A stretch of DNA of 56,673 nucleotides, taken from positions 1 to 56,673 of the IMG/VR virus record IMGVR_UViG_3300036851_000348; one strand, written 5' to 3'. The notes under the pieces were generated by a model, which was not told the DNA's origin, did not search any database, and was given only the letters and a program-made list of their open reading frames with translations. Numbering within the stretch: position 1 is the first letter of the stretch; every line of letters starts with the position of its first letter. Position numbers and translations under genes: made by a program. Source of the DNA: a virus. Shown piece by piece: positions 3,003 to 44,071 of this stretch.

Positions 3003-3313
3003 GCCTCAAAGCCGGCGTCCGCATCCAGGGCGTTTCCACCGAACTGACCTTCGCCATGTGGATCGTCGCCGAGGTGTTCCGCGACAACAACATTCCGCTG
3101 GTGGTGACGAGCTGCGTCGAAGGAACGCACACCCGGGGCTCCGAGCATTACCAGGGGAACGCGATCGACCTCCGCACCCGCGACATGCCGGCCGACAAGG
3201 TCAAGTACGTTCGGGACGTGCTGGCGCAGCGGCTCGGGGCGGATTTCCAGATCCTCGTCGAGAAAGACCATCTGCACGTCGGCTATTTCCCGACCGCGCC
3301 CATCGCGCCCTAA
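2999..3313 (+). CDS. Endolysin, M15-type L,D/D,D-peptidase
   Basis: 104 residues carrying the zinc-peptidase M15 signature: H50 in GSEHYQGNAIDL, D57 six residues later, and H91-L-H93 near the C-terminus (EKDHLHVGY). These are the metal ligands of VanY/endolysin-type carboxypeptidases that cut peptide cross-links in peptidoglycan. The length is the bare catalytic domain with no wall-binding module and no signal peptide, so it needs a holin. The ATG overlaps the previous stop (ATGA). Confidence 0.88.
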   Translation: MSLKAGVRIQGVSTELTFAMWIVAEVFRDNNIPLVVTSCVEGTHTRGSEHYQGNAIDLRTRDMPADKVKYVRDVLAQRLGADFQILVEKDHLHVGYFPTAPIAP

Positions 3314-3371
3314 ACCCGAAGCCGCAATGCTCCTGGGCGACCCGCTGCCGCACCAACTGAAGGACCCGATC

Positions 3372-3536
3372 ATGACCCGCTCGCAGTTTTCCGGCGTCGC
3401 CCGCGCCGTCCTCGCCTATGTCGCCGGTATGGGCGTCGCCAAGGGCTGGCTCCCGGCCGAAGGACTGAACGAAGCCGTCTCCGGCTTGGCGCTTCTCCTG
3501 ACCGCCTGGTGGTCCGTCAACTCGAACCGGGCGTGA
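3372..3536 (+). CDS. Putative holin
   Basis: 54 residues, one to two short membrane segments (VARAVLAYVAGMGVAKGWL and GLALLLTAWWSVNS). The pattern 'R.....R.VL....G...KGWL.......V.GL.LL..AWWS' is that of small Pam3-gp28-type putative phage holins. ATG at 3372 is preferred over upstream 3327 because AAGGA lies just before it and it gives the compact holin form. Directly after the endolysin and before a lipoprotein. Confidence 0.7.
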   Translation: MTRSQFSGVARAVLAYVAGMGVAKGWLPAEGLNEAVSGLALLLTAWWSVNSNRA

Positions 3537-3540
3537 GCCG

Positions 3541-3843
3541 ATGACCCGAATATTTTCCGGAATATTTGTCGCGGCTTTCCTCGCGCTCGCCGCCTGCGCC
3601 AGCCACCCGCTCGTCACCCTGGCCCAGCGCTGCGACGAGCTGGCCGCCGCCGTCAACATCGCCAGCGTCCACCGTGCCGCCGGCAAGCTCACGCCGAGCC
3701 AGGTTCAGTCCGTGCTCGCCTCCGAGCCGGTGGCAAAAACGCTGTGCAACAAGGCGACGCCGCCGCTCGATCCGACGACCGCCATCGGGCGCGTCGCGGA
3801 CATGCTCGACCAGATCGCTCTCATCAATTCGGGGATTCGCTGA
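3541..3843 (+). CDS. Small lipoprotein, possible outer-membrane spanin-like
   Basis: 100 residues with a classic lipoprotein signal peptide: hydrophobic residues 5-18 and lipobox LAAC. The mature part is helical with two more Cys. In a lysis cassette a small lipoprotein is a candidate o-spanin, though it is longer than most and lacks the usual Pro-rich mature chain. It overlaps the next start by 1 nt (TGATG). Confidence 0.7.
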   Translation: MTRIFSGIFVAAFLALAACASHPLVTLAQRCDELAAAVNIASVHRAAGKLTPSQVQSVLASEPVAKTLCNKATPPLDPTTAIGRVADMLDQIALINSGIR

Positions 3844-4019
3844 TGGACACCGCCGCGCAATCGCTCGTTCTGCTGCTGTCGCTCGGGCTCCGGACCTACG
3901 AGCATTACCAATCCGGCGAGCTCACCGAAGAGCAGGCCAAGGCGATCTATGACGCCGCAGTGGATCGGCTGAACCAGGCGTACGAGAACTTCAGGAACGC
4001 GGGGCCGGCGGTAGGGTAG
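3843..4019 (+). CDS. Small hypothetical protein
   Basis: 58 residues, amphipathic helices (LVLLLSLGLRTYEHYQSG then LTEEQAKAIYDAAVDRLNQAYENF). ATG overlaps the lipoprotein stop by 1 nt, so translation is coupled. Last gene of the plus-strand lysis group; converges on the tRNA. No family recognised. Confidence 0.6.
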   Translation: MDTAAQSLVLLLSLGLRTYEHYQSGELTEEQAKAIYDAAVDRLNQAYENFRNAGPAVG

Positions 4020-4114
4020 GCAACGCGGACCATATCCGACGGCCGTCGAACATGCTGTGACGGCGCGGAAATGATGCGACGGCTGTCGCGATGGTGCTCG
4101 GGGGTTAAGCCGCG

Positions 4115-4188
4115 TGGCGAGGCCGCAAGGATTTGAACCTCAATTCCCGGAGTCAAATTCCGGTGTCCTACCGTTGAACGACGGCCCC
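4115..4188 (-). tRNA. tRNA-Gln (anticodon UUG), CCA encoded
   Basis: On the minus strand 4188-4115 folds as a full cloverleaf: acceptor GGGGCCG/CGGCCTC, D stem GTTC/GGAC with AACGGTAG loop, anticodon stem CCGGA/TCCGG with loop ATTTGAC (anticodon TTG), T stem TGAGG/CCTTG with loop TTCAAAT, discriminator G and encoded CCA. The 5' end directly abuts the stop codon of the RNA ligase gene (TAA at 4191-4189), so the tRNA must be cut from the long leftward message. The acceptor has a G2-U71 pair and starts with G, unlike most bacterial tRNA-Gln. Confidence 0.93.
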
Positions 4189-4821
4189 TTACACAAAGTC
4201 TCGATGCTTTAGCTTGGTGATGATGCGTTGGCCGTTGCGCGCGATGAGTTCCGTTGCGGGCCGCGCGACGATGCCCTCGGCGGCGAACTGGCCCCATTGC
4301 GACTCAAGGCCGCGCACGGTTCGGTTCACCATGTCCTCGATGGTGCCGCGTCCGATGATGGGCACAACATCGAGTCCTAGCTTTTGCGCCACGTCCTCGA
4401 CGTTCGCCCGCTCCAGCCACCACATGCCGACGCGCACATCGAACAGCACGAAATCCGCGTCTGGCCGATAGTTGCCGCCACCCTTCTGGATGCGCGCTCC
4501 GTAACCCTCGCCGTAGAGAACTCCGCCGTCAGGAAACATCTCGGCAAGACGCGCTGCTTGTGGTAGAAATCTTTCTTGCAAGCGCGCGACAAGAAATGCG
4601 GGTATTTGGGCATCGTCCGTGCGGCCCCCGAACGTGATGGAACCGCCAGTCGGCGGGACGATCACCCGAATGTTGGTGCCGTCCACCTTCTCGGTGAACA
4701 CCCATTCGTTGCGCGCCAGGTAGGCGAATTCCGGCCGTGCAAACTCTCCGATCAATAGCGTTTTGAATTTTGTCTCGGGATTGCGCTTAAAAACAGTTTC
4801 GATCTTGTGATACCGGCTCAT
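4189..4821 (-). CDS. RNA ligase (Rnl2-type)
   Basis: 210 residues with the nucleotidyltransferase motifs of ATP-dependent RNA ligases: motif I EKVDGTN with adenylated Lys45, motif III VLYGEGYG (101-108), DFVLFDV (123-129), motif IV EGIVARP (182-188) and motif V ITKLKH (201-206). The family seals nicks in RNA, classically repairing tRNAs cut by host anticodon nucleases. ATG at 4821 overlaps the upstream stop (ATGA) and has GGAG before it. Immediately upstream of a tRNA-Gln gene on the same transcript, which fits an RNA-repair role. Confidence 0.88.
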   Translation of the reverse strand: MSRYHKIETVFKRNPETKFKTLLIGEFARPEFAYLARNEWVFTEKVDGTNIRVIVPPTGGSITFGGRTDDAQIPAFLVARLQERFLPQAARLAEMFPDGGVLYGEGYGARIQKGGGNYRPDADFVLFDVRVGMWWLERANVEDVAQKLGLDVVPIIGRGTIEDMVNRTVRGLESQWGQFAAEGIVARPATELIARNGQRIITKLKHRDFV

Positions 4822-5126
4822 GTCATCTCCGCGATAAACGCCGCGAGGGCGGCGCGCATGGCTGCGCGCTGTTTTTCGCGCCCGATCTCTCCAAAGCCAC
4901 AAGCATCTATAAACACTCGATTGGCCTTCTCGACATGCTCCTCCGTTAGCACGAAGGCGGGCGAAGCGGCGAGCATGGCGCGGTACGAGTTGCTGGGCGA
5001 TGCGCTAAGCCCCGGCACGTGTAGCGGATAGGAGCCGTCGCCGAGGTCCATCGGGATCGTCGGCCATTTGCCGGCTTCGTACATTTCTGGCGTTGGCTCG
5101 CACGGCACGATCTTCCACTTGGTCAT
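4818..5126 (-). CDS. Conserved phage hypothetical protein
   Basis: 102 residues beginning MTKWKIVPCEPTPEM, an opening seen in many small early proteins of proteobacterial phages ('W..VP.EPT.EM..A'), ending in a helix (KQRAAMRAALAAFIAEMT). Function unknown. Coupled on both sides by 4-nt overlaps. Confidence 0.75.
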   Translation of the reverse strand: MTKWKIVPCEPTPEMYEAGKWPTIPMDLGDGSYPLHVPGLSASPSNSYRAMLAASPAFVLTEEHVEKANRVFIDACGFGEIGREKQRAAMRAALAAFIAEMT

Positions 5127-5443
5127 GTCCCCTCCGGGTCGAGCAGGGCGGCGGCTTCGCGGAGCACCCCGTGGGCGATTTGTGCGGGCATATTGAAAGG
5201 CCGGTTATGGCCCGCAGCTTCCCGTAAAGTCGCAGCGATGAGTTTCCGTCTTGGGTCTGCGAGCGCCTTGAGAACGGGGAGGGAAAGGACGGCGTCGGCT
5301 TGTCCGAGCCGCACCTGCTTCACATGAGAATATCGCGATCGGGTCAGAACCTCGTCGAACGGCACTTGTGCGTATTCGTCCCATGCGTCGCTAGCCCGCT
5401 CGTGTATCGCCCGCGCGATGGCCTCGCGCAGCCCATCATTCAT
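5123..5443 (-). CDS. Hypothetical helical early protein
   Basis: 106 residues; start MNDGLREAIARAIHERASDAWDEY resembles the N-terminus of many small phage early proteins ('..L..AIA.AIH..A...W'). ATG at 5443 chosen over a longer upstream reading because the upstream small gene ends at 5454. C-terminal half is helical (ATLREAAGHN, GVLREAAALLD). Function unknown. Confidence 0.7.
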   Translation of the reverse strand: MNDGLREAIARAIHERASDAWDEYAQVPFDEVLTRSRYSHVKQVRLGQADAVLSLPVLKALADPRRKLIAATLREAAGHNRPFNMPAQIAHGVLREAAALLDPEGT

Positions 5444-16296: not shown

Positions 16297-16662
16297 ATGC
16301 CTACAGTTGGTCGCCCGAACCTTCGGGAGCCCGCGCCGGGAAGCATCCAGGCCTACGTCGAATCCATCGAGACGCTGGAGCGCGAGAAGCGCGAGATCGG
16401 GAAGGACGTTTCCGAGCTCTACAAATCCGCCAAGGACGCCGGCCACGACGTCTCGCTGATCCGCGAAATGCTCAAGCTCCGCAAGATCGACGCCGACGCG
16501 CTCAGGGAACGCGAAGAGAAGCGCGAGGACTACATGCGCCAGCTCGACATGTTCGCCGGGCCGGTCGAGCGGGCGGCCACCAAGTTCCGCGACACGCTCC
16601 GGCAGGACGGCGTCTCGGCGACGCTGCACGCCGCCGGCATGGAGCCGGTCAAGATCGCATAG
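16297..16662 (+). CDS. GapR/DUF2312-like DNA-binding protein
   Basis: 121 residues. YVESIETLEREKREIGKDVSELYKSAKDAGHDVSLIREMLKLRKIDADALREREE follows the GapR/DUF2312 pattern, a coiled-coil chromosomal protein found mostly in alphaproteobacteria that binds overtwisted AT-rich DNA. The C-terminal ~40 residues are an extension. The phage copy may aid replication or compete with host GapR. Good clue to the host group. Confidence 0.85.
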   Translation: MPTVGRPNLREPAPGSIQAYVESIETLEREKREIGKDVSELYKSAKDAGHDVSLIREMLKLRKIDADALREREEKREDYMRQLDMFAGPVERAATKFRDTLRQDGVSATLHAAGMEPVKIA

Positions 16663-16668
16663 GGCGCC

Positions 16669-16848
16669 ATGAATTTCCCTCACGTGCGGCCGCTCCTAAT
16701 TGGGCTCGCGGCCAGCCCAGGAAAACTAACCGGACCTCGCACTGCCGCCGCACGGCTGCCGGGTTTTTCCGTCGTTTTCACCCGGTGGGGCTCGAAGCCG
16801 AAAGGTCCGGAAGGCCGCAACTTTTTTCTCGGGCGGGATGAACAATAA
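16669..16848 (+). CDS. Possible 59-residue protein
   Basis: A frame from ATG 16669, 6 nt after the GapR-like stop, reading MNFPHVRPLLIGLAASPGKL and ending FFLGRDEQ. AGGGCG just before the ATG could serve as ribosome-binding site. It fills an otherwise empty ~200-bp gap, but composition is not distinctive and no family is recognised. Confidence 0.4.
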   Translation: MNFPHVRPLLIGLAASPGKLTGPRTAAARLPGFSVVFTRWGSKPKGPEGRNFFLGRDEQ

Positions 16849-16866
16849 ACAACTGGAGATCACAGG

Positions 16867-17436
16867 ATGGAGACGAAAAACTTTCATATCGTCGGCATTG
16901 CGCCGCTCATCATGCACAACGTGCGGCTGGCCGATCCGCTCGACGAATTCGCCAAGAAGGTCAAAAAACTTACGGCCAACCGGCGCAAGACGGAGGAAAT
17001 CCACGAGCAGATCGCGCGCGAAGAATTCGAGGGCGGGCTCTACTTCGACAAGGCACTCGGCCCCTACATTCCGGCCGACAACATCGAGCGCATGATCGTC
17101 GATGCGGCGAAGGCGTCGAAGCTCGGGGCCACCGTCAAGGAATCGATGCTGTCGGTAGGCGATCGTTTCCAGCTCGCCTACGAGGGGCCGCGAACCGTCC
17201 AAGAACTATACGACGAGAAATTTCTCTACCGGAGGGCCGTCGGGATGCGCGGCAGCAAGACCGTGCGCACGCGCCCGATGTTCCCCAACTGGGCGGTGGA
17301 GTTCACGTTGAGCTACGACCCCGAACGGCTCAACGGGGATCAGGTTCGGGACATCATTGAGTACGGCGGACGCTACAAGGGGTTGTGCGATTTTCGCCCG
17401 CGGTTCGGCCGCTTCAAGCTGAACGGGGCGAAGTGA
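16867..17436 (+). CDS. Conserved phage protein upstream of the GGCNN array
   Basis: 189 residues. Opens FHIVGIAPLIMHNVRLADPLDEFAKKVKKLTANRRKTEE, then GGLYFDKALGPYIPADNIERMIVDAAKASKLG, and ends GGRYKGLCDFRPRFGRFKL. I recognise this as a recurring phage family but not its function; the alpha/beta layout with Arg/Lys-rich loops would suit nucleic-acid binding. GGAG lies before the ATG. Its stop sits ~10 nt before the pentanucleotide array, an arrangement worth testing for a protein-site pair. Confidence 0.75.
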   Translation: METKNFHIVGIAPLIMHNVRLADPLDEFAKKVKKLTANRRKTEEIHEQIAREEFEGGLYFDKALGPYIPADNIERMIVDAAKASKLGATVKESMLSVGDRFQLAYEGPRTVQELYDEKFLYRRAVGMRGSKTVRTRPMFPNWAVEFTLSYDPERLNGDQVRDIIEYGGRYKGLCDFRPRFGRFKLNGAK

Positions 17437-17445
17437 GCTTTCCGA

Positions 17446-17896
17446 GGCGTGGCGGGCCCCGGCCTGGTGTGGTGTGGCATGGCGCGGCAAGGCAAGGCAG
17501 GGATTTAAGAATGTTGATTTCAACACGGCGTGGCAGGGCGCGGCCTAGCGAGGCGCGGCCGGGCATGGCGAGGCGCGGCTTGGCGAGGCGAGGCTGGGCT
17601 TGGCCGGGCAAGGCAGGGATTTAAGAATGTCGATTTTCAGCACGGCGGGCCAGGGCCCGGCTTGGTTAGGCTTGGCGCGGCGTGGCTGCGCGTGGCAGCG
17701 CGTGGTGCGGCAGGGCTCGGCGAAGGCAGGCCGAGGCGCGGCAAGGCAATGCGCGGCCCGGCCCGGCAGGCCAAGGCAGGGATTTACCAATGTCAATTTT
17801 GAACACGGCGCGGCCAGGCCTGCCTCGGCTAGGCAGGGCCGGGTGTGGCACGGCTCAGCCGGGCTCGGCGCGGCTGGGCTTGGTAGGGCAAGGCAG
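17446..17896 (+). repeat. (GGCNN)n pentanucleotide array with three AT-rich cores
   Basis: The plus strand reads GGC every five bases for ~450 bp. Blocks: 11 pentamers (17446-17500), core 1 (17501-17526), 18 pentamers, core 2 (17617-17643), 27 pentamers plus one slipped base, core 3 (17780-17806), 18 pentamers, ending at the start region of the next gene. Each core is 26-27 nt, begins GGATTTA, contains ATG followed by an ATTT-type stretch and ends CAC. The strand is strongly G-biased with GG every 5 nt. All six frames stay largely open, which makes ORFs here unreliable. Confidence 0.9.
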
Positions 17897-17906
17897 GGGT
17901 TGAACA

Positions 17907-18413
17907 ATGAACGATATTGATTCCGACAATTTCGAGCTCGAAGTCCATCCGGCGTGGCGCCAAGCGATCAAGGATTTTCTCGCCGCCAACTTTCCGCCGG
18001 GCCACGTCGTCACCTTCGATTGGCTCTACGACGCGTTCAAGTTGAAGATGCCGAGCGAGGCGACGACGTGGGGCGAGGCGTCGAAAACCAAGCTGTTGTT
18101 CCTCAGCCAGTTCCAGAATTTTTCCGAGCATCTGCTGAGCGAGCAAACCATCGCGCTCGCCAGCGTGACCGGCGTCGGCTATCGCGTGCTGCCGCCCGGC
18201 GACCAAACACCGTGGGCCGAGGCCGAAGGACGCGCCGAACTCAAGCGCGCGCTGCGCAAGCTCGGCCGGCGCATCAGCCACGTCGATCGCGCGAAGCTCA
18301 CCACCGGCCAGTTGCGCGAGAACGCCGACGCGATGGCGCGCTACTCGATGCTGCGCGGCATGACAAAGCAAATCGAACGCCAGCCAGCCGAGGACGAAGA
18401 ACAAAGCGACTGA
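17907..18413 (+). CDS. Conserved phage protein downstream of the array
   Basis: 168 residues: an acidic N-terminus, LYDAFKLKMPSEATTWGEASKTKLLFLSQFQNF, then GVGYRVLPPGDQTPWAEAEGRAELKRALRKLGRRISHV and a helical end (ADAMARYSMLRGMTKQIER). The 'G.GYR..PP..QT' motif and flanking helices look like a small winged-helix phage family; function unknown. Its start region (GGCAAGGCAGGG...ATG) resembles the cores of the upstream array. Confidence 0.75.
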   Translation: MNDIDSDNFELEVHPAWRQAIKDFLAANFPPGHVVTFDWLYDAFKLKMPSEATTWGEASKTKLLFLSQFQNFSEHLLSEQTIALASVTGVGYRVLPPGDQTPWAEAEGRAELKRALRKLGRRISHVDRAKLTTGQLRENADAMARYSMLRGMTKQIERQPAEDEEQSD

Positions 18414-18428
18414 TGCGGGGAGATTGTT

Positions 18429-18938
18429 GTGGCGACGAACGCTGACGACCCAGAGAAATTCGCCCACGACATGGCCGCTTTGCACGCGACGAACGCGCTG
18501 AAGGGATTCTGGTACGCGTGGCAGCGACTCAGTCCGCGCTGCCAAAGCCCAATCGAAAAACTTTTTCTCGCCGCATTCCTCGGCACCTCTCGCGCGGGCG
18601 ATTGGACATACAGCGAAACCGAGTTCAACGAGGCCAAGGCCCAGCACGCCGTGGGGGCGATCTTCGGTGAAATGTATCTACAGGCGAAGATCAAGGGGTA
18701 TCGCGCCGACTTCCTTATTTATTCGTCGTGGGCCGAGCGCTACGTCGTCATCGAGTGCGACGGCCATAACTATCACGAACGCACCCCCGAACAGGCCGCG
18801 CACGATCGCAAGCGCGACCGCGCGATGGCCGAGAATGGCATTCGAGTCCTCCGCTTCACCGGGACCGAGATTTACCGCGACGCGCCCGCGTGCGCGCGGC
18901 AGGCGCAAGAGTTCGCCGGCTGGCTCGCTGGCCAATAG
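18429..18938 (+). CDS. DUF559/Vsr-like endonuclease
   Basis: 169 residues. SPIEKLFLAAF opens the fold; YRADFLI supplies the catalytic Asp, and VVIECDGHNYHERTPEQAAHDRKRDRAMAENGIRVLRFTGTEI the E-x-D strand and downstream helix. This is the DUF559/very-short-patch-repair branch of the PD-(D/E)XK nucleases. The phage copy may act in recombination or branch resolution. GTG start after GGGGAGATT. Confidence 0.83.
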   Translation: MATNADDPEKFAHDMAALHATNALKGFWYAWQRLSPRCQSPIEKLFLAAFLGTSRAGDWTYSETEFNEAKAQHAVGAIFGEMYLQAKIKGYRADFLIYSSWAERYVVIECDGHNYHERTPEQAAHDRKRDRAMAENGIRVLRFTGTEIYRDAPACARQAQEFAGWLAGQ

Positions 18939-31007: not shown

Positions 31008-31276
31008 CCTCCAAGGGATCGCCCGCCCCTCCGGGGCCGCTCACCGCGCTCGCCGCCGCCGAGGCCAAGATCCAGGAGCTCGGCCGGGACATTTGCGCCG
31101 AGCTTCCCGGCTTCGCCTTCGCGGTCCTGATCGCGACCCCGGACGGCGGCTACGTCACCAAGGGGACGAACCTCAACGCGCAAGCGCTGGTTTCGCTGCT
31201 TCTCACCCAGGCCAACAACGTGGTGATCGGGGCGGACGCGCCGGCCGGGAAGCTGGCGAAGGGAAGTACGCATTGA
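31004..31276 (+). CDS. Hypothetical protein with shared GSPAPPGP segment
   Basis: 90 residues: SKGSPAPPGPLTALAAAEAKIQELGRDICAELPGF then a strand-rich part. The DNA for GSPAPPGP lies in a 26-bp exact repeat shared with the gene at 36001. Its stop overlaps the TTG start of the radical SAM gene. Function unknown. Confidence 0.55.
   Translation: MTSKGSPAPPGPLTALAAAEAKIQELGRDICAELPGFAFAVLIATPDGGYVTKGTNLNAQALVSLLLTQANNVVIGADAPAGKLAKGSTH
31015..31040 (+). repeat. 26-bp direct repeat, copy 1
   Basis: Exact match to 36069-36094, in the same reading frame, encoding GSPAPPGP near the N-terminus of two otherwise unrelated proteins. Confidence 0.9.
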
Positions 31277-32229
31277 ACCCCTTCGCGACGCACTACGACC
31301 GCTGCAACACCGGCACCAACGCGGCGAAGCGCGAAACCCTCGCCGACTTCCCGCACCTCGTCGACATCGAGCTGACGAACGCCTGCAACTTCCGCTGCCT
31401 GATGTGCCCGACGGGAAACCTTTCGCTGAAGCGGCCGGCCGGCTTCATGGCCGCCGCGACGTTCGCCCGCATCGTCGACCAGTGCGCGCCCCACACGACG
31501 GCGCTCCGCTTCATCGGCTGGGGCGAGCCGCTGCTGCATCCCGAGCTGGTGCAATTCGTCTGGGACGCCGACGCGGCGTGCTTGCCGACCCACATCAACA
31601 CGAACGGCTCGAAGCTGACCCAGGATATGGCGCGAAGCCTGATCTTGGCCGGGCTGTCCTCGATCAAGTTCAGCTTCCAGGGCGTCGACCGCGCGAGCTA
31701 CCGCGCGATGCGGAACGTTGATTTCTTCGAGCCGCTCCTCGCCGTCATCCGCATGGTGCACGAGATGCGCGGCTCGCGCCTGCGTCCGTTCATCCAGGTG
31801 TCGACCACGACGACCGACGAGACGCCGGAGGAAATCGAGTTCTTCAAGCGGCGCGTCGCGCCCTACGCCGACCACGTCACCGTCGGGCAAACCGTCTTCG
31901 GCCACATGGACCTGGGCGCGGCGCGGCTCTCGGCGGTCGACAAGGCGCGCTTGGTTAAGTTCGCCAAGGCCGAGGACGCGACGAAGCTCCGCCACCCCGA
32001 GCCGTGCCCCGAGGTCAACGACAAGCTCACGATCCAATGGGACGGGAGCGTCCGGGTGTGCTGCAACGATTTCGAAGGCGTGACCGATCTCGGGAACGTC
32101 AACGATCGCCCGCTGGCGGACATCTGGCGGGCGGAAGTCATCGAGGCCTACCGCGAGCGGCTCGCGCGCGACGAATACTCGGGCCCGCTGTGCGGGACGT
32201 GTTTCCACTACATGGAAGGCACGGCGTGA
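31273..32229 (+). CDS. Radical SAM/SPASM enzyme
   Basis: 318 residues, TTG start. NACNFRCLMCP provides the CxxxCxxC [4Fe-4S] site (C38, C42, C45), with the GWGEPLLHPEL (GGEP-like) SAM motif and INTNGSKL following. The C-terminus has a SPASM-type Cys set: PEPCPEV, RVCCNDFEG, LGNVNDRPLADIW, GPLCGTCFHY. SPASM enzymes modify peptides or sugars by radical chemistry. It lies between the CMP-sugar synthetase and PseA-type genes, so a sugar or virion glycoprotein substrate is plausible (inference). Confidence 0.88.
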   Translation: MNPFATHYDRCNTGTNAAKRETLADFPHLVDIELTNACNFRCLMCPTGNLSLKRPAGFMAAATFARIVDQCAPHTTALRFIGWGEPLLHPELVQFVWDADAACLPTHINTNGSKLTQDMARSLILAGLSSIKFSFQGVDRASYRAMRNVDFFEPLLAVIRMVHEMRGSRLRPFIQVSTTTTDETPEEIEFFKRRVAPYADHVTVGQTVFGHMDLGAARLSAVDKARLVKFAKAEDATKLRHPEPCPEVNDKLTIQWDGSVRVCCNDFEGVTDLGNVNDRPLADIWRAEVIEAYRERLARDEYSGPLCGTCFHYMEGTA

Positions 32230-43153: not shown

Positions 43154-44071
43154 ATGCGCGACATCGCGCAAAACGTCGTCATCCAGATCGAGGTGACGAA
43201 TGCCTGCCATCTTTCGTGCCAAGGCTGCACCCGACACGTCGGCCATCACCGGAAGCCGTTCTTCATGGACCTGGAGACGATCAAGCGGGCGATCGACAGC
43301 CTCGACGGCTGGGGCGGGCGCATCGGCTGCATGGGCGGCGAGCCGACCTTGCATCCCGAGTTCGAGCAGATATGCCGCATCTTCCAGGACATGGTGCCGA
43401 TCGAGCGGCGCGAATTCTGGACGGCTGGTTTCCGCTGGGGCAATCTCAAGCCGCTCATCGATGAGACGTTCCCACTTCGGCACTATAACGACCACGTCGC
43501 CTACGACGGCATGCACAAGCCGCTGCTGATCGCGATCGACGAAGTCGTCGACGACCCGGAGTTCAGGCGCGAGCTGATCGACAATTGCCCCTATCAGACG
43601 CACTGGTCGGCCTCGATCACGCCCAAGGGCTGCTTCCCGTGCGAGATCGCCGCATCGATGGACTGGCTCTTCGACGGTCCGGGCGGCTGGCCGATCGAAC
43701 GCGGCTGGTGGCAGAAAACGGTTGCGGATTATGACTGGATGATAGAGCGCTACTGCGGCAAATGCTCAGGCGCGCTCCCCATGCCAGCGCGCTCCGACGG
43801 CCGCGGCGGTAGAGACGGTGCGACGATGGACCTCGTTTCACCGGGCAACGTCGAGCGGCTCCGCGCAATCGGCAGCAAGAAGATTGCCCGCGGCCACTAC
43901 GAAGTGTTCGAAGGCAAGATCACCCGCGAGGACATCGCGAAGCACACGCACCTGAATCCGCGCGAGTACAGAAAATTTATCGCGCATAGCCCGGAAGATG
44001 TTGCGGCGGCGCTAGCATCGCGTACAATTGGCGTCGATGCTCACGCAGGCCAGACTGAAAGAGGTTCTTGA
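43154..44071 (+). CDS. Radical SAM enzyme between scaffold and capsid genes
   Basis: 305 residues. VTNACHLSCQGCTRH holds the CxxxCxxC cluster site (C18, C22, C25), followed by RIGCMGGEPTLHPEF (GGEP motif). Further Cys (CFPCEIA, YCGKCSGAL) may bind an auxiliary cluster. The C-terminal ~90 residues (ALPMPARSDGRGGRDG to FIAHSPEDV) form a separate domain that is duplicated downstream at 44551. ATG directly follows the scaffold stop. A head-protein or surface-sugar modification is the natural suggestion from context. Confidence 0.87.
   Translation: MRDIAQNVVIQIEVTNACHLSCQGCTRHVGHHRKPFFMDLETIKRAIDSLDGWGGRIGCMGGEPTLHPEFEQICRIFQDMVPIERREFWTAGFRWGNLKPLIDETFPLRHYNDHVAYDGMHKPLLIAIDEVVDDPEFRRELIDNCPYQTHWSASITPKGCFPCEIAASMDWLFDGPGGWPIERGWWQKTVADYDWMIERYCGKCSGALPMPARSDGRGGRDGATMDLVSPGNVERLRAIGSKKIARGHYEVFEGKITREDIAKHTHLNPREYRKFIAHSPEDVAAALASRTIGVDAHAGQTERGS

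Follow-up and report, generated by a model that had tools for sequence, protein, structure and literature searches.

A predicted phage VIPR locus with a four-guide array lying between vipr and vap

The region spanning nt 16867–18413 of the IMG/VR virus record IMGVR_UViG_3300036851_000348 (the whole stretch analysed, 56,673 nt, is hereafter called the window) is almost certainly a phage-encoded VIPR locus, composed of a vipr gene, a four-guide array (nt 17446 to about 17922) and a vap gene. According to a preprint (PMC13142463), VIPRs are phage-borne loci that combine a single small RAMP protein, Vipr, with the accessory gene vap and with guide RNAs (vrRNAs), the latter made of alternating GGY and NN motifs (YNNGG) followed by an invariable 3' tail. 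The same preprint reports VIPR loci mostly in phages, vrRNAs of 9–16 repeats in the SUSP1 and P. fulva clades, a structured tail with a pseudoknot in the SUSP1 clade, SUSP1 targets in which the NN bases are matched with 1 nt skipped between successive pairs, and a predicted DNA-binding role for type II Vap. The preliminary description of this DNA, which knew of no matching system, has thus been overtaken by PMC13142463.

A small RAMP Vipr, a GGY/NN tract, a near-invariant tail and an adjacent vap, all expected of a VIPR system, were observed in the window, and the identification is based on the repeat code, on the homology and fold of Vipr, on the homology of Vap and on the co-occurrence of GGY arrays with vipr in relatives. 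The window also carries terminase, head-tail adaptor and tail genes, and nothing closely related to this phage was present in the phage collection that was searched.

The repeat array and the flanking genes

The array consists of 74 in-register pentamers (nt 17446–17896) arranged in blocks of 11, 18, 27 and 18 units, with block 3 being formed by 16 + 11 pentamers separated by one extra A at nt 17724. GGC had been initially described as recurring every five bases, in blocks of 18, 27 (plus one base) and 18 units; the periodicity and these lengths were confirmed, with the addition of the first block of 11 units, but the consensus is GGY. Perfect GGY was found at positions 1–3 in 64/74 pentamers (58 GGC, 6 GGT, no GGA or GGG), and across all 74 units position 3 was C in 68 and T in 6; as this base varies from C to T only, the fixed motif is GGY and not GGC. 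Conversely, the NN slot (positions 4–5) was near-maximally variable, with 16/16 dinucleotides present and an entropy at positions 1–5 of 0.46, 0.36, 0.41, 1.93 and 1.99 bits, respectively, in agreement with the earlier view of an array that is kept up rather than freshly expanded. Runs of eight GGCNN units occurred six times in the window, compared with 0 expected from 100 shuffles, and 17, 14 and 16 in-phase GGY per 90 nt were counted in the three long blocks versus 7 at best elsewhere in the window.

Table 1. Position of the predicted VIPR features in the window.
Feature	Position (nt)	Strand	Basis
vipr, RAMP-fold predicted guide-RNA-binding protein, 189 aa	16867–17436	+	homology and AlphaFold; phrog_4652
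Putative vrRNA 1 repeat tract, 11 GGYNN pentamers	17446–17500	+	repeat scan
Putative vrRNA 1 tail (core 1), 26 nt, GGATTTAAGAATGTTGATTTCAACAC	17501–17526	+	
Putative vrRNA 2 repeat tract, 18 pentamers	17527–17616	+	repeat scan
Putative vrRNA 2 tail (core 2), 27 nt, GGATTTAAGAATGTCGATTTTCAGCAC	17617–17643	+	
Putative vrRNA 3 repeat tract, 16 + 11 pentamers, extra base at 17724	17644–17779	+	
Putative vrRNA 3 tail (core 3), 27 nt, GGATTTACCAATGTCAATTTTGAACAC	17780–17806	+	
Putative vrRNA 4 repeat tract, 18 pentamers	17807–17896	+	
Diverged fourth tail, GGGTTGAACAATG..., end coordinate approximate	17897–17922	+	
vap, accessory protein, homologue of SUSP1 Vap1, 168 aa	17907–18413	+	homology; phrog_5926

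The vipr product, a small RAMP homologue as expected for VIPR (about 20 kD), showed 32% identity with SUSP1 Vipr (agp039) over 187 aa (E 4e-36). It matched the PDB chain 36pp_D, "SUSP1 Vipr protein", as a single sequence (E 4.5e-28), and this chain was the sole significant match when the Vipr family profile was compared with PDB sequences (E 5.5e-59). The AlphaFold model was confident (pLDDT 91.1 for Vap and 93.8 for Vipr), and the best Foldseek matches of the Vipr model were the Cmr/Csm RAMP subunits of type III CRISPR systems (E 4.2e-5 to 1e-3, TM about 0.5). Window Vap was 29% identical to SUSP1 Vap1 (agp038) over 112 aa (E 2e-11). No clear structural relative of Vap was retrieved, the weak matches (E above 0.1) including winged-helix DNA-binding proteins, so that a DNA-binding role would rest on the prediction made for type II Vap in PMC13142463. 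In the Vipr tree the window lies on a long branch, within no strongly supported subgroup, and its type is hence stated only as type II-like, as suggested by its Vap1-type accessory gene.

The two genes adjoin as a minimal two-gene locus, with the array on their same strand. Just upstream of vipr, a small gene (nt 16297–16662) has a GapR-type DNA-binding domain (PF10073), which suggests an alphaproteobacterial host. The gene following vap (nt 18429–18938) matches MTES_1575/DUF559 nuclease-like families and may or may not be part of the VIPR operon. Two radical-SAM-like genes (nt 31093–32229 and 43154–44071) are located on either side of the genes for terminase and head-tail adaptor. A tandem-repeat scan did not reveal any CRISPR repeat-spacer array, nor was a cas gene present among the neighbouring proteins scanned.

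Array placement among Vipr relatives

Vipr homologues were retrieved from phages and plasmids, and further ones from bacterial and archaeal genomes (70) and from IMG/VR (the best 80 of 544). Adopting a GGY run of at least seven units as criterion, arrays were found in 56/70 genome relatives (0/70 shuffles) and in 74/80 of these best virus relatives, that is in 130/150 loci which, the two sets overlapping in part, are not 150 independent cases. Arrays occur beside vipr in SUSP1, wV8, LESphi2, Medea1, Trine, LittleE and MakoManhole, and accompany this gene in phages, prophages, plasmids and chromosomes, as anticipated by the earlier proposal of a functional tie with the flanking genes. A vap homologue, 25–49% identical, was detected by tblastn in 66/150 relatives. 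In the 150 loci the most frequent block length was 10 units (range 7–26), and the blocks of the near relative L113 measured about 12–18 units; the multiples of nine previously remarked in the window are thus not general.

These data make it scarcely credible that the array arose by recent microsatellite expansion or as an assembly artefact. The sequence is indeed GC-rich and periodic, as such an origin would predict, but adjacent units share GGY only, with nearly maximal NN entropy, and independent homologous loci have the same architecture, so that the array is not confined to this assembly.

Among the 346 arrays of the relatives, 344 were on the strand of vipr and 338 within 1.5 kb of it. 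Considering only loci where a vap homologue is present, the array was upstream of vipr in 109 cases, intergenic in 13 and downstream in 50. For instance, in Pseudomonas phage LESphi2 vipr and vap abut and the arrays are upstream, literally the situation (this gene pair with no array in its spacer) that the preliminary description would have counted as a refutation; it contradicts the idea of an array always placed between this gene pair, and that idea only. An array that moves, while almost always keeping the strand and the company of vipr, fits a guide-RNA gene, with an RNA read by the protein, and not a fixed DNA site, origin or packaging site. The array could instead be a DNA element to which the flanking proteins bind directly, acting as a replication origin, a packaging or recombination signal, or a quadruplex or R-loop site; such roles were among the earlier suggestions. 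One strand does have GG at five-base spacing, and tandem arrays can be iterons. Nevertheless, such roles appear very improbable, considering the shifting position at constant strand and closeness to vipr, the occurrence of arrays on plasmids and chromosomes too, the NN bases free to vary, unlike in iterons, and a RAMP protein as neighbour.

Several loci of Azospirillum, Bradyrhizobium, Microvirga and Methylobacterium (L005–L010, L030, L037 and L070) have vipr, and GGY arrays where found, without a homologue of the window vap, and on the plasmids of Bradyrhizobium the neighbours of vipr are genes of the AAA ATPase, metallophosphoesterase or HNH kind. The vipr loci of these four genera are perhaps defence-type VIPRs.

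Tails and decoded targets

The three cores initially recognised were confirmed as near-identical copies, and a fourth, diverged copy was additionally found to overlap the ribosome-binding region and the start codon of vap; GGCAAGGCAG precedes 3/4 of these putative tails. Tail 1 alone forms a clear hairpin (TGTTG/CAACA, −3.3 kcal/mol). No fold is conserved across the window tails and, as tails 2 and 3 break this pairing, no conserved stem is claimed. The GGGCTG-ANAA-CAGC hairpin, located 3' of the repeats in Pseudomonas-type loci, is absent from the compact tails of the window and of the relatives L113 and L177/L181, which likewise have no fold in common. The Rfam scan of nt 16600–18600 did not return anything near threshold, including any hammerhead ribozyme, the promoter scan did not find any sigma-70-like promoter, and the terminator scan gave a single terminator-like site, lying on the opposite strand, which is less than chance would be expected to give.

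In each core an ATG is preceded by GGA-rich sequence, and the array is crossed by open frames, as might be expected if small repetitive proteins were translated from each core. This explanation is nonetheless extremely improbable. The compact tails of L177/L181 mostly lack a start ATG, the NN positions are unconstrained, and the reading frame passes through all three phases of the five-base repeat, so that no repeat residue is kept; the absence of codon logic noticed in the preliminary description is thereby upheld.

As for the way the predicted VIPR locus may work, transcription, RNP assembly, targeting by the skip rule and repression in this phage are all extrapolated from the published SUSP1 work. 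Each guide would consist of tandem GGYNN pentamers ending in a short tail, and Vipr subunits might assemble along the transcript, by analogy with SUSP1. Vipr would keep the GGY of each pentamer from pairing and the NN pairs would be offered to double-stranded DNA, a guide of n pentamers thus reading a target of the form NNxNNxNN... Binding, with the help of Vap, would lead to the repression of genes belonging to a phage, satellite or prophage that competes with this one.

Leaving aside the two or three constant units that close each block, decoding by the published 1-nt skip rule yielded gapped patterns with between 16 and 48 bases specified; the target built from the NN bases of block 2 is GTnAGnGCnCTnGAnGCnCGnATnGAnGCnTTnGAnGAnTGnTTnCG. 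When seeds of 8–12 dinucleotides were searched against IMG/VR, no extended match was found, but only partial, chance-level ones. The first 9 dinucleotides of block 2 gave 8 matches, and since each of them agreed at 10/16 pairs only, they are attributed to chance. No match above 24/32 bases was obtained with the last 8 dinucleotides of block 2, the first 8 of block 4 or the seeds of block 3, and none in IMG/VR with 12 dinucleotides of block 3. The block 2 patterns were likewise not found in the genomes of 14 relatives nor in 385 genomes belonging to the same class as a Bradyrhizobium relative, which represent an arbitrary draw; the competitor itself may not have been sequenced. Read as codons, the decoded blocks contain no forced stops, and block 2 gives V[SR]AL[DE]AR[IM][DE]A[FL][DE][DE][CW][FL]R; tblastn of a decoded peptide did not retrieve any match. 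In a codon-phase test, the NN bases fitted positions 1–2 better than the other phases and no better than a uniform model.

The lack of a convincing target, together with the 10/74 pentamers off the GGY consensus and the one-base insertion in block 3, could indicate a decayed VIPR array, descended from a working system and whose guides no longer serve. We consider this unlikely for the array as a whole. The NN bases are in fact hypervariable while GGY is kept, position 3 varies only to T, the allowed pyrimidine, vipr and vap are intact and their products confidently folded in the AlphaFold models, and off-consensus units are also carried by other loci, such as that of LESphi2. The off-GGY pentamers and the slip in block 3 mean, however, that some guides may be decaying within what is most probably still a VIPR guide array.

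Comparison with known systems

The locus of Escherichia phage SUSP1 (type II; PMC13142463, PDB 36pp), with its homologous Vipr and Vap1, shares with the window the GGY/NN pentamer guides, each with a tail, the phage-borne location and the single strand. The arrangement differs, as in SUSP1 one guide precedes the gene pair and three follow it, whereas the window has its four tracts all in the vipr-vap interval. Moreover, the RNAs described for SUSP1 in the preprint are about 100 nt long, with 9–16 repeats and a structured tail. Three of the four window blocks (18, 27 and 18 units) exceed this range, when counted as DNA units, and are followed by 26–27-nt tails without a conserved fold. A fold likeness links Vipr to the type III CRISPR RAMP proteins Csm3, Cmr4 and Cas7 (Foldseek E 4e-5 to 1e-3), but the locus lacks Cas1, a multi-gene effector and the repeats and spacers of CRISPR, and guide reading, contiguous in type III CRISPR, is gapped according to what is published for SUSP1.

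The nearest layout was found in L113 (IMG/VR 3300005253_000354), which is also the nearest by tree path and whose vap is the closest to that of the window (49% identity). In L113 the array lies between vipr and vap, the tails are compact and the last one runs into the vap start, as in the window; it differs by its about nine tracts of about 7–18 units. The L113 tails measure about 22 nt, e.g., GGAGACTTTGCGGATTTCACGC. The tails of L177/L181 (GGGATTTGAAACATCAC) resemble the first tail bases of the window (GGGATTTAAGAATGT) and its final CAC, but they are shorter and the corresponding Vipr is elsewhere on the tree.

L158 (nt 3205–3780) and L160 (nt 3625–4265), close relatives of the window vipr-vap pair, carry pentamer arrays at the corresponding intergenic site, but with GA as the sole fixed bases (GANNN) instead of GGYNN, with 158 GA sites having a period-5 neighbour, three near-random flanking bases and tails GGATTGGTTTATTGGA. 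These pentamers possibly represent a changed VIPR code. Downstream of vap, L160 also has GGC arrays (nt 4833–5137) that shift register by one base every ~7–12 units, without a tail, and are perhaps the "staggered" arrays mentioned in the VIPR preprint.

We tentatively suggest, while considering it somewhat less probable than its opposite, that a VIPR architecture of its own unites the window, L113, L158, L160 and perhaps L177/L181. It would be marked by guides placed in the vipr-vap interval, by short tails lacking structure and by long tracts reaching 27 units; its last tail would double as the vap ribosome-binding region, and in L158/L160 the code would have changed from GGYNN to a pentamer with GA alone fixed. 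Under such an architecture, guide supply would be coupled to vap expression.

VIPR is thus an already known kind of system, of which the window would be a somewhat unusual case for its long blocks, compact unstructured tails and intergenic array, traits common to its relatives; what could still be new is the placement of a compact-tail array between the two genes, together with the relatives having GA pentamers. Long guides (up to 27 units, equal to an 81-nt target) with short tails bear on the number of Vipr subunits, on the need for a tail structure and on the cutting of guides from a multi-guide transcript, and, once the host is known, the decoded targets may point to the competitors of the phage. 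The window would then hold a guide array of a proposed precursor of CRISPR RAMP systems, recognised from its sequence alone.
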